A stretch of 64,000 nt of DNA from Candidatus Aegiribacteria sp. MLS_C (GTDB lineage Bacteria; Fermentibacterota; Fermentibacteria; Fermentibacterales; JCC-6), in NCBI GenBank assembly GCA_002030045.1, contig LQBI01000008.1, positions 1 through 64,000 on the forward strand, given 5' to 3'. Positions 56,485 to 60,425 of the stretch are shown piece by piece (position 1 is the stretch's first letter; every line of letters starts with the position of its first letter). The notes beneath the pieces are model-generated. The model had not been told where the DNA came from. It was given only the letters and a program-made list of their open reading frames with translations, and ran no database searches. Both the position numbers and the translations under genes were made by a program.

Positions 56485-56673
56485 TCAACGCCTGTCGAAG
56501 AGCAGCACACCGCCTATACCGACGTTTTCCGGGGTGTACTCCCTTATGAGAACGACATAAGCCTCCCGTGGAATGCCGTATGCTTTCTCGGCGGCGTCGG
56601 TGATATCCCGTACAAGCTCCCTCTTAATGGCGGTGTCGGCTATCGGTGGGCCGTCTATGGTGATCGTAGGCAT
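56485..56673 (-). CDS. 4-oxalocrotonate tautomerase-like protein
   Basis: This 62-residue protein, MPTITIDGPP after the initiator Met, gives the catalytic N-terminal Pro1. The rest (KRELVRDITDAAEKAYG, YVVLIREYTPENVG) matches the small tautomerase family. I begin at 56673 because Pro1 must be exposed; a longer ORF of six extra codons exists. The substrate is unknown. Confidence 0.88.
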   Translation of the reverse strand: MPTITIDGPPIADTAIKRELVRDITDAAEKAYGIPREAYVVLIREYTPENVGIGGVLLFDRR

Positions 56674-56865
56674 GGTTCTCCTTTCTCGCACGGCACTCCA
56701 TTTCCTGGTGCGTTCGCAGCTGCATTATACATCAAATGCGAGCCACGTGAGAAATGACGGCTGAACGACCGGGACCGCATCAGGTGCGGTATTAGGGTCT
56801 GTCACAATTAAAACACTGTATAAAGAGCAATAAATACTCAGTTATTCAACAACCAGTCCAGGGTA

Positions 56866-56896
56866 TTGACTTTTTTTTTGGATTTATTCGTATATT
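56866..56896 (+). promoter_or_regulatory. Promoter of the Lys-rich microprotein gene
   Basis: TTGACT (56866-56871) and TATATT (56891-56896) are 19 bases apart (18 using GTATAT), with an unusual poly-T tract between them. Transcription would begin at the base of the stem-loop at 56902. Confidence 0.6.
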
Positions 56897-56901
56897 ACTT
56901 T

Positions 56902-56921
56902 TGCACCCAATGGTGGGTGCA
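56902..56921 (+). other. 5' stem-loop of the microprotein message
   Basis: TGCACCCA-ATGG-TGGGTGCA is a perfect eight-pair hairpin with a four-base loop, starting at the predicted transcript start and ending seven bases before the AGGGAG ribosome site. It may protect the 5' end from decay. Confidence 0.65.
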
Positions 56922-56936
56922 TGAAAGGGAGTCGAA

Positions 56937-57017
56937 ATGGTTGCGAAGAAGGCCCCGGAGAAAAAGGCAAAGCCCGCAAAGACCGAGAAGCCTGCCAAGA
57001 AGACCAAGAAGAAGTAA
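56937..57017 (+). CDS. 26-residue Lys/Ala-rich basic microprotein
   Basis: ATG, five bases after AGGGAG, opens MVAKKAPEKKAKPAKTEKPA and a Lys-rich end (KKTKKK). Twelve of 26 residues are Lys, with Ala and Pro between them, like the disordered tails of histone H1-like and HU-extension proteins. It probably binds nucleic acid (inference). The whole unit is self-contained: promoter, 5' stem-loop, strong ribosome site, terminator at 57093. It has no coding partner, and was too short for common ORF cut-offs. Confidence 0.65.
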   Translation: MVAKKAPEKKAKPAKTEKPAKKTKKK

Positions 57018-57092
57018 GACCTGCACATTAGCAGGGTCGCAGGGGAGCGCAGGCCTGAACGGCACATGCTTCCGCGGTTCTGAAGCACTGAA

Positions 57093-57136
57093 GGTCAGGG
57101 CCGGGACTGGAAACGATCCCGGCCCTGACCCTTTTT
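57093..57136 (+). terminator. Strong intrinsic terminator
   Basis: A perfect 14-pair stem (57093-57106 with 57117-57130; arm GGTCAGGGCCGGGA) with a 10-base loop is followed by CTTTTT. It is the clearest Rho-independent terminator in the window and ends the microprotein unit. Confidence 0.9.
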
Positions 57137-57160: not shown

Positions 57161-57511
57161 ATGACACACTTCCGGAAGAGATTCACAGCGGAATCGCTGC
57201 AGGAGATCAACCGGAGGATATTCCCCGATGAAGATGCTCCGCAGGATGATGATGATCCTCCAGAAGAAGATGATGATGATAAGAAGCGCCGGAACCGGGG
57301 CAGTCTCATTCTTGATGCAACGGTATCACCTGCCGACATGACATTCACTGCGGACTCGAAGCTTCTCAACGGCTCACGGGAATGTCTCGAAGGGATAATG
57401 GATGCCCTTCGGGAACTTCGACCACCTGGCAGCACGAAGCCCGGGACCTACAGGGAGAACGTCCGGCGTGATTACCTGAGAGTACGGACTGACCCCGGCG
57501 TTCGAAAATGA
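57161..57511 (+). pseudogene. Transposase remnant (IS5/IS1182-like)
   Basis: This 116-residue fragment starts MTHFRKRFTAESLQEINRRI, then an acidic linker (DDDDPPEEDDDDKK). RGSLILDATVSPADM carries the first catalytic Asp of a DDE transposase, and a TYRENVRRDYLRV segment follows. Family members are several times longer; here the frame ends soon after. No inverted repeat ends are evident. The unit is therefore inactive. Confidence 0.75.
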
Positions 57512-57650: not shown

Positions 57651-58226
57651 TTGAAGGAATTCTTCACTTTGACGATTTCGTCCGCTGTCCTGGCGGCAGT
57701 CGTGGCGGGATGCGGGACCGCGGGCCAGATGGCATCCATGGGGCTTCCGGCCGACTACGCCAGGTCCCCGGTCCTTGATACCAGGGATTACTGGAGGACG
57801 GCGGTGCTGCCCATGGCGTCCCCGGTCCCCGTAAGCGGCATCGATCTCGGCATGCTTTCCGACTACGCGGGAATGGCCCTTCTGCGGACGGGGAAGTTCA
57901 CCGTTGTCGACCGGTCCGTGCTCGACGAGATACTGGAGGAGCAGGAGCTGTCCTACTCCGGAATAGTGGACCAGTCCACCGCGGTGGAACTGGGAAGGGT
58001 AATGGGGGCCGAGGCCGTGATGACGGTGCGGGTGGGTTCCATTTCCCACGATGATTTCTGGTCCGACGAGCCGGGCCAGAGGGATGCCAGTATCCACGTC
58101 AGAATAGTATCGGTGGAGACCTCGGAGGTGCTGTATACCGCAACAGGTCAGGGCAACAGCTTCGAGGGGGCGGAGGACGCTCTGAAGATGGCTGTGGAAG
58201 TGGCCCTCATAGGCCTGTTCAGATAG
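57651..58226 (+). CDS. CsgG/FlgO-like outer-membrane lipoprotein
   Basis: This 191-residue protein starts at TTG behind AAAGGAG, with a lipobox (AAVVAGCGT). The central fold (TGKFTVVDRSVLDEILEEQE, then VELGRVMGAEAVMTVRVGS) is that of CsgG, FlgO and TolB-N type proteins. It is the first of three consecutive small lipoprotein genes with 1-11 base gaps. FlgO-like H-ring or surface-complex assembly is likely by analogy. Confidence 0.8.
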   Translation: MKEFFTLTISSAVLAAVVAGCGTAGQMASMGLPADYARSPVLDTRDYWRTAVLPMASPVPVSGIDLGMLSDYAGMALLRTGKFTVVDRSVLDEILEEQELSYSGIVDQSTAVELGRVMGAEAVMTVRVGSISHDDFWSDEPGQRDASIHVRIVSVETSEVLYTATGQGNSFEGAEDALKMAVEVALIGLFR

Positions 58227-58237
58227 GGAAGGTAAGA

Positions 58238-59230
58238 ATGAGGTTATACATTGTCTGCCTGATGACGCTCTCTTTCCTGCTTGCCGGATGCGGCACTACC
58301 TTGTCGGGCTCGGGGAGCGAATCCTCGTCAGTACGTCCGGAGACGGTCCCCATGCTTGCGGAGACTTCGGATGAGCAGGAACAGGTACCCTCCGGCGTCG
58401 AAGTCGAACTCTTCCCCGAACTGCTGGAACCGGTCCATGCGGCGGTTCCCGGTGAGGTCGTGGAAACTGTGCCGGGCGGCGAGATAGACTGGTCGGGCAA
58501 CAGCATAAGGGCCACCGGGACCGGCGTGGTGGATACCGGTAACCCGAACCTCGCCCAGGCCAGGCTCATGGCGGAAAGGGCGGCGGTGGTGGTCGCCCAG
58601 CGGAACCTCCTGGAGGCCGTCCAGGGTGTGACCGTGGACTCGGAGACAAGGGTAGAGAACTTCATGACCGATTACGACGTGATATACACGAGGGTGGAGG
58701 GCGTGGTCAGGAACGCCCGGCAGCCGGGCCCCGCCGTCTACGATTCCGTCGCCGGGACAGTGGCGGTGGAGCTGGAGATGGAGATCTACGGGTCCCGGGG
58801 CCTGGCCGGTGCGCTGAGCACGGCCTTTGCCGGAACGGACCCGGGTCAGGTATCCATGTCGGATCAGACCAGGGACTTCCTCCAGCAGTACTCAGCGTTG
58901 GTCCTTGACGGGAGCCAGGCGGGGCTGCAGCCGTCCCTGTACCCCAAGATATACGATGCCGACGGCAACCTTCTGCTGGATACCTCCCTGTACGCCTCCT
59001 ACCTCGGTTCCGGAGGCAGTGCTGCGCTGCAGTTCGTATCGGACCTGGACAGGGTGCTCTCCCTTCCCGCGTTCTCCGGTTCGCCCCTGGTGCTGAGCGT
59101 GAGACAGGTAACCGGGCAGCTTGGCACGGATATCATCCTCGGCAGGGAGGAATCGGACGCGATGGGCTGGCTGGGATCCGCCCTTCCGTTCCTGCTCAGC
59201 GCCGGCAAGTTCCTCCTGGGGGTTATCTAG
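58238..59230 (+). CDS. LPP20/FlgP-like lipoprotein
   Basis: This 330-residue protein has a lipobox (SFLLAGCGT). The LPP20-type domain (ATGTGVVDTG, RLMAERAAVVVAQRNLLEAV, then DSETRVENFM and IYTRVEGVVRNAR) spans about residues 85-185. A second region of unknown fold follows, with a terminal hydrophobic stretch (LPFLLSAGKFLLGVI). LPP20/FlgP proteins form rings around Vibrio flagellar basal bodies or are surface lipoproteins. Confidence 0.78.
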   Translation: MRLYIVCLMTLSFLLAGCGTTLSGSGSESSSVRPETVPMLAETSDEQEQVPSGVEVELFPELLEPVHAAVPGEVVETVPGGEIDWSGNSIRATGTGVVDTGNPNLAQARLMAERAAVVVAQRNLLEAVQGVTVDSETRVENFMTDYDVIYTRVEGVVRNARQPGPAVYDSVAGTVAVELEMEIYGSRGLAGALSTAFAGTDPGQVSMSDQTRDFLQQYSALVLDGSQAGLQPSLYPKIYDADGNLLLDTSLYASYLGSGGSAALQFVSDLDRVLSLPAFSGSPLVLSVRQVTGQLGTDIILGREESDAMGWLGSALPFLLSAGKFLLGVI

Positions 59231-59231
59231 C

Positions 59232-60425
59232 ATGACCTACCTCAAGCGTGCGGCCGGCATCGCGCTGATGCTGTCCATCTTTGCCATGACAGCATGCACC
59301 GCGGCGACCTCCACAGTTGGCGGGGGAGCGCTGCAGGCAGGCGCGGTGCAGGAGATCCCAGCAACCGCGGCCGGAGAGACCGAAGTGCTGGCAGAGGGTG
59401 TCGCCTCCGTATCGGGGAGCGCGGTGGACATGGCCAGGGACAGCGCCCTGGACGACGCTCTGAGGAAGGCCGTGGAGCAGGGCGTGGGCGCCTTCATCGA
59501 CTCCGAGACACGGGTCAGCAGCTTCCAGCTGATCTCGGACGAGATCTACTCAAGGACCTCGGGTTACGTATCATCGTACCGGATCATAGAAGAGGGCGTA
59601 TACGGCGACCTTTACCGGGTGGTCCTGAGGGCGGTGGTGAAGACCGACCGGATCCAGGACGACCTTGCCGCTATCGGTCTTCTGCTCCGGCAGCAGGGAA
59701 GACCCAGGGTGATGGCGGTGATAAGGGAGTACTCCGCGCCTTCAGCATCTGAGTCGGATTCCGGAGGGTCGGACCTCTTCGAGACGGCGGTGCTTGAGCA
59801 TTTCAGGAACAGGGGATTCCCGGTGGTGGATGCCGCCGCGGTAAGGGAACTGATGGACGATGACAGGACAAGGCTTTTACTGGCCGGCGATGAGGAGACC
59901 GCCGTGCTCCTGGGGCTCGAAACCGGGGCCGAGATAGTGGTGAGCGGCACCGTGGACCACAGCAGGATATCAAGGGACATCGGCGGCACTCGAAGGGAGG
60001 TTCACGAATACAGCGTAAGCGCCCGTGCGATAAACACCCGTACGGGAAGCATGCTGGCCGGCGCCTCGCTTACAGTGGCGCTGCCCTTCAGCAGGGCGGA
60101 GGCCCGCTCCAGGGCCGCGGACAGCACAGCCGCCCGACTGGAGTCGGCAATCCTGGAGGGATGGACGGAAAGCGTTAACACAACGGTCATAGTCGCCTCG
60201 GGAGCGGATTTCCAGAAGGTGCAGGAACTCAGGACAGAGATTATGGAAGGGGTCAGGGGCGTCACAGACGTGGTGATAAGGGAGCTGACCGGTTCCATGG
60301 CGACTCTGGAGGTCGTATCGGAGACATCCGGCATTGAGGTCATGGACGACCTCTACGGGCTGGGTACCGGTTTCGTCATCACGAGGATGGGGAGTAACAG
60401 GATAGACATCGAGTTCGTCGACTGA
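59232..60425 (+). CDS. FlgT-like lipoprotein
   Basis: This 397-residue lipoprotein (FAMTACTAA) has an N-terminal FlgT-type domain (EGVASVSGSAVDMARDSALD, then RTSGYVSSYRIIEEGVYG). A CsgG-like middle (FRNRGFPVVDAAAVRELM) and a C-terminal beta domain follow. It begins one base after the previous stop. The trio FlgO-, FlgP-, FlgT-like recalls the Vibrio outer rings, yet no flagellar gene is present in the window. Confidence 0.75.
   Translation: MTYLKRAAGIALMLSIFAMTACTAATSTVGGGALQAGAVQEIPATAAGETEVLAEGVASVSGSAVDMARDSALDDALRKAVEQGVGAFIDSETRVSSFQLISDEIYSRTSGYVSSYRIIEEGVYGDLYRVVLRAVVKTDRIQDDLAAIGLLLRQQGRPRVMAVIREYSAPSASESDSGGSDLFETAVLEHFRNRGFPVVDAAAVRELMDDDRTRLLLAGDEETAVLLGLETGAEIVVSGTVDHSRISRDIGGTRREVHEYSVSARAINTRTGSMLAGASLTVALPFSRAEARSRAADSTAARLESAILEGWTESVNTTVIVASGADFQKVQELRTEIMEGVRGVTDVVIRELTGSMATLEVVSETSGIEVMDDLYGLGTGFVITRMGSNRIDIEFVD

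Follow-up and report, generated by a model that had tools for sequence, protein, structure and literature searches.

A gene for a lysine-rich microprotein, equipped with its own promoter and terminator, appears to occupy positions 56866–57136 of the window (the whole 64,000-nucleotide stretch of DNA analysed here, from a genome of 2.98 Mb in Candidatus Fermentibacterota, a phylum of the FCB group). Inspection of the sequence locates within these 271 bases, on the forward strand, a promoter, a 5′ hairpin, a ribosome site, a 26-codon open reading frame (ORF) and an intrinsic terminator, a layout that we read as a monocistronic, dedicated transcription unit. Comparison with a relative makes it very probable that the ORF (56937–57017, stop included) is a real protein-coding gene, and for the combined claim—that it is protein-coding and that its product binds nucleic acid—we arrive, by analogy with known proteins, at a probability of roughly 0.55. 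On the same analogy, the peptide would most likely correspond to the Lys/Ala/Pro tail of a histone H1-like bacterial protein, but as a molecule on its own.

The promoter (TTGACT-N19-TATATT, 56866–56896) consists of a −35 hexamer, TTGACT, at 56866–56871 and a −10 hexamer, TATATT, at 56891–56896. The 19-nt spacer between them exceeds the length that is optimal in E. coli and is equally long in the relative; the simple promoter scan allows spacers of 16–18 nt, and this promoter is absent from its list. A perfect hairpin of eight pairs with a loop of four (TGCACCCA-ATGG-TGGGTGCA, 56902–56921) begins six bases 3′ of the −10 hexamer, which places it at about the predicted start of the transcript. 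In shuffled sequence, a perfect hairpin of eight or more pairs turns up roughly every 9 kb, so that ~0.005 would be expected per leader of this length. A purine-rich ribosome binding site follows (GAAAGGGAG, 56923–56931), and because an in-frame TGA lies five codons upstream of the ATG at 56937, that ATG is the only plausible start. Beyond the stop codon, a 3′ untranslated spacer of 75 nt (57018–57092) leads to the terminator (57093–57136), which comprises a stem of 13–14 bp (57093–57130) and a run of five T (57132–57136). At −33.4 kcal/mol, it is more stable than any other hairpin of the window that has a T-run (the runner-up reaches −28.7 kcal/mol), as a preliminary description of this DNA had proposed. 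The same description had called the ribosome site strong; the site is present and its GAAAGG recurs in the relative, but its strength is good rather than exceptional. In genome G018 (L018, 1500–1525), TTATTCGTATATGACTTTTG, nearly identical to the end of the unit's promoter, precedes a gene for a cyclic-nucleotide-binding-like protein, and promoters of this kind are possibly a lineage-wide type.

An orthologous unit is carried by one other member of the genus (G006; contig JAFGPK010000009.1, a Candidatus Fermentibacteraceae MAG) in the same place, between genes for a DmpI-type tautomerase and a CsgG/LpoB-type lipoprotein. Its promoter reads TTGACA-N19-TATATT, and GTATATTACT is identical in both genomes. 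The promoter, eight-pair stem-loop, Lys/Ala/Pro ORF and terminator that the preliminary description had fitted into 271 bases were each located in the window and are each conserved in this relative, where the basic ORF that it had suggested seeking between the same stem-loop and terminator was duly found. We also looked for the outcome that it had named as pointing to an RNA gene—hairpins kept, frame lost—and the relative retains hairpins and frame alike. Its peptide, MAGKKIPEKKAKPVKTEKPKKAKKK, has 12 Lys and a net charge of +10, as does the window copy, in agreement with the earlier claim of a small basic protein made from its own unit. Identity between the two copies varies by part: it is 82% from the −10 hexamer to the start codon, 85% in the hairpin (17/20 bases), ~88.5% of aligned bases (ungapped) in the ORF, 41% (ungapped) in the spacer between stop and terminator and 70% in the terminator. 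The two flanking genes reach 70% and 62% identity, and synonymous differences affect 60–75% of sites there.

Within the ORF, start and stop are identically placed, and the two copies differ by ten substitutions, four of them synonymous, and by one codon lost in frame. The codon alignment leaves all 12 Lys, all three Pro and both Glu unchanged, and the five aligned amino-acid changes are confined to small or aliphatic residues. When ten substitutions are placed at random, 0.55% of trials retain all 12 Lys and 0.015% retain every K/E/P/M/stop position; the Lys tracts are preserved partly through codon bias (AAG). Five four-fold codons retain their residue (P7, A11, P13, T16, P19), and three of these have a changed third base, a rate about that of the neighbouring genes and hence as expected under selection on the protein. 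The Nei–Gojobori dN/dS of ~0.31 is imprecise, resting as it does on ten substitutions. The genomes searched contain only two sequences of the family, and all conservation therefore rests on one comparison.

On its 5′ side, the unit adjoins a gene on the reverse strand for a DmpI-type 4-oxalocrotonate tautomerase (56485–56691), which is patchily distributed (9/42 phylum genomes, each belonging to the same genus). On its 3′ side lies a remnant of an IS5-family transposase gene on the forward strand (57161–57511), 93% of which aligns with plasmid-borne IS5 transposases at ~40% identity. This remnant is absent between the corresponding genes of the relative, in which the lipoprotein gene starts about 120 bases 3′ of the terminator. 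Further along the window, a run of lipoprotein-like genes on the forward strand (57651–60425) encodes a CsgG/LpoB-like protein (57651), an unnamed lipoprotein (58238) and a FlgT_N-domain protein (59238–60422), a run that we take to resemble a FlgO/FlgP/FlgT-like outer-membrane set.

Two alternatives to a protein with a function of its own can be weighed against these data. A structured small RNA with an incidental reading frame would draw on the RNA structure: in the relative, the hairpin keeps 8/8 pairs (one A-U replaced by G-C on both sides, one C-G by U-G) and the terminator keeps 13/13, two of them altered on both sides, though with two sequences, and with shuffles that often reach such counts, these compensatory changes are suggestive rather than statistically strong. 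The whole transcript also folds better than shuffles in both species (z ~ −3.8), a value that probably owes much to the terminator. However, the best conserved of the longer stretches is the ORF, with its whole-codon indel and its constraint at the amino-acid level, and the window yielded no RNA-family match in a search of Rfam. The non-coding spacer, moreover, is not conserved: its RNA folds differently in the two species and its core aligns within chance (138 of 1000 shuffles score equally well), which undercuts the suggestion that the 75-base stretch from stop to terminator acts as an RNA in its own right. With the ORF conserved and the spacer hardly alignable beyond chance, we favour a protein gene with a 5′ hairpin and regard an RNA gene as very improbable. 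A Lys-rich leader peptide, whose translation would decide whether transcription runs through the terminator to the next gene, is also highly unlikely. Twelve Lys codons with structured RNA and a terminator behind them do give the outline of an amino-acid attenuator, but the downstream gene encodes the CsgG/LpoB-like lipoprotein rather than a protein of lysine biosynthesis or transport, the Lys codons are mixed with those for Ala, Pro and Glu with no single run, and the unconserved, differently folding spacer is where alternative structures would have to form. The IS5 remnant intervenes in the window, and in another 17 relatives that have the lipoprotein gene the flank available does not contain the unit; both observations argue against a leader for the lipoprotein.

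Among 385 genomes searched, the 42 of the phylum included, G006 is the one other genome in which the unit was found. Searches of the 42 phylum genomes by DNA, 5′ pattern, peptide back-translation, profile and hairpin pattern gave no further copy, nor did the peptide profile across all 385; a covariance model of the promoter–hairpin–ATG segment recovered nothing beyond the two species, the exact hairpin pattern retrieved G006 as the sole relative from a collection of 84,980 species, and no copy of the unit was found in viral contigs or in phages. At the lipoprotein and tautomerase loci of relatives, no Lys-rich ORF lies within about 1.5 kb. A weak match to the peptide profile in G031 falls inside a 560-aa protein and was rejected, and none of the other matches to a KKxKKK-stop pattern that were inspected is a small Lys-rich ORF arranged in this way. 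A tree of the lipoprotein from nine genomes pairs the two carriers, though weakly (80/82). From these sequence searches, the Lys-rich microprotein gene appears clade-restricted, and it would be either young or changing too fast to follow; short peptides of low complexity easily escape such searches, which leaves absence elsewhere unproven.

The peptide (MVAKKAPEKKAKPAKTEKPAKKTKKK) has 26 residues, among them 12 Lys, and a net charge of +10. With 46% Lys, 19% Ala and 12% Pro, it has the Lys/Ala/Pro composition of H1-like proteins of the AlgP type. Its Lys fraction is the highest among the 709 ATG-initiated ORFs of 15–60 aa in the window, the next reaching 22%, and the maximum in 100 dinucleotide shuffles of the window was 20% (ORFs of 20–60 aa). 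It lacks a signal sequence and is probably disordered. Models of Pfam, NCBIfam and PHROGs gave no match, nor did solved structures, in a type of search that very short peptides can escape, and a literature search turned up no mention of this peptide. The peptide is thus new to the libraries searched, while Lys/Ala/Pro tails are already known as parts of larger proteins.

How such a unit might work can be pictured from its parts. Transcription would start at the foot of the hairpin, so that the 5′ end of the mRNA would be base-paired and shielded from 5′-end-dependent decay, and a long-lived message would result. In both E. coli and B. subtilis, mRNAs are stabilised by 5′-terminal stem-loops, according to work on ompA, papA and aprE cited in a review (PMC3997798); as in these cases, the unit has a perfect stem upstream of its ribosome site at the predicted 5′ end, with a different sequence and with a 5′-end position that is here predicted from the −10 hexamer. 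The Lys clusters of the peptide, spaced by Ala, Pro and Glu, would then bind a polyanion, most likely DNA or RNA. We favour this target because AlgP-derived peptides with KPAA repeats bind DNA in vitro (PMC9239181) and because the disordered C-terminus of MDP1 is required for nucleoid compaction (PMC5974015). We tentatively propose, as one possible form of the reading, a domain-less, H1-tail-like microprotein that would serve as an abundant condenser of nucleoid or RNA, encoded by a minimal one-gene unit that may have arisen within one Fermentibacterota lineage.

The likeness to known proteins has clear bounds. With the histone H1-like proteins AlgP and PhaF of Pseudomonas, the peptide shares Lys/Ala/Pro richness, KPA-type motifs, expected disorder and, we infer, polyanion binding; AlgP, however, has an N-terminal helical domain and a KPAA-repeat tail of 154 residues (PMC9239181), whereas the 26 residues here come with no other domain, no regular repeat and no family-model homology. 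As homology did not emerge and nucleic-acid binding is here presumed rather than observed, we do not count the peptide as a member of the H1-like family. It can likewise be compared to the tails of mycobacterial MDP1/HupB and Streptomyces HupS, which are basic and disordered and drive DNA compaction (PMC5974015), but those tails belong to proteins with an HU fold and this one would be encoded alone. The HU proteins read from both carrier genomes (two HU loci were left out) show no Lys/Ala-rich tail of the MDP1/HupS kind, so that an origin of the peptide as a tail detached from HU finds no support. HU is present in 41/42 genomes of the phylum, so there is no evident need for a second DNA compactor, which counts against nucleoid condensation. 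Five HU-family matches (C4, C5, C7, C10, C14) occur in the window genome; relatives mostly have two or three.

Other partners for a short polycation deserve consideration. A lineage-specific ribosomal peptide—a stoichiometric subunit packed into rRNA, with the size and charge of bTHX—would suit the size (25–26 aa), the charge and the dedicated unit, as well as a sequence better conserved than the neighbouring genes. We nevertheless think it rather unlikely: the peptide matches no Pfam or NCBIfam model and no solved structure, no ribosomal gene adjoins it, and only two species of the phylum carry the gene, an uncommon distribution for a ribosomal protein. The known form of bTHX is rich in Arg, and apart from its similar size and positive charge it differs from the peptide in sequence, with no family match between them. 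A partner outside the nucleic acids, whether an acidic polymer (polyphosphate, for example) or an acidic protein, seems less likely still. AlgP, whose KPAA tail is of similar composition, sits on polyphosphate granules (PMC9239181), but polyphosphate is less favoured here because PPK1 (PF02503) was found in 0/19 genomes of the genus, against 7/14 control genomes, in a search directed at PPK1 alone among the polyphosphate kinases PPK1 and PPK2.

Lys/Ala/Pro tails are otherwise known in bacteria as appendages on larger proteins; a gene product of 26 residues made up of such a tail and no more, with a conserved promoter, leader hairpin and terminator to itself, would offer a minimal natural test of the tail's action alone. 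A 26-codon gene of this sort is easily overlooked by annotation pipelines, and the comparison of two species can recover microproteins that length-limited gene callers likely skip, in a phylum without genetics.
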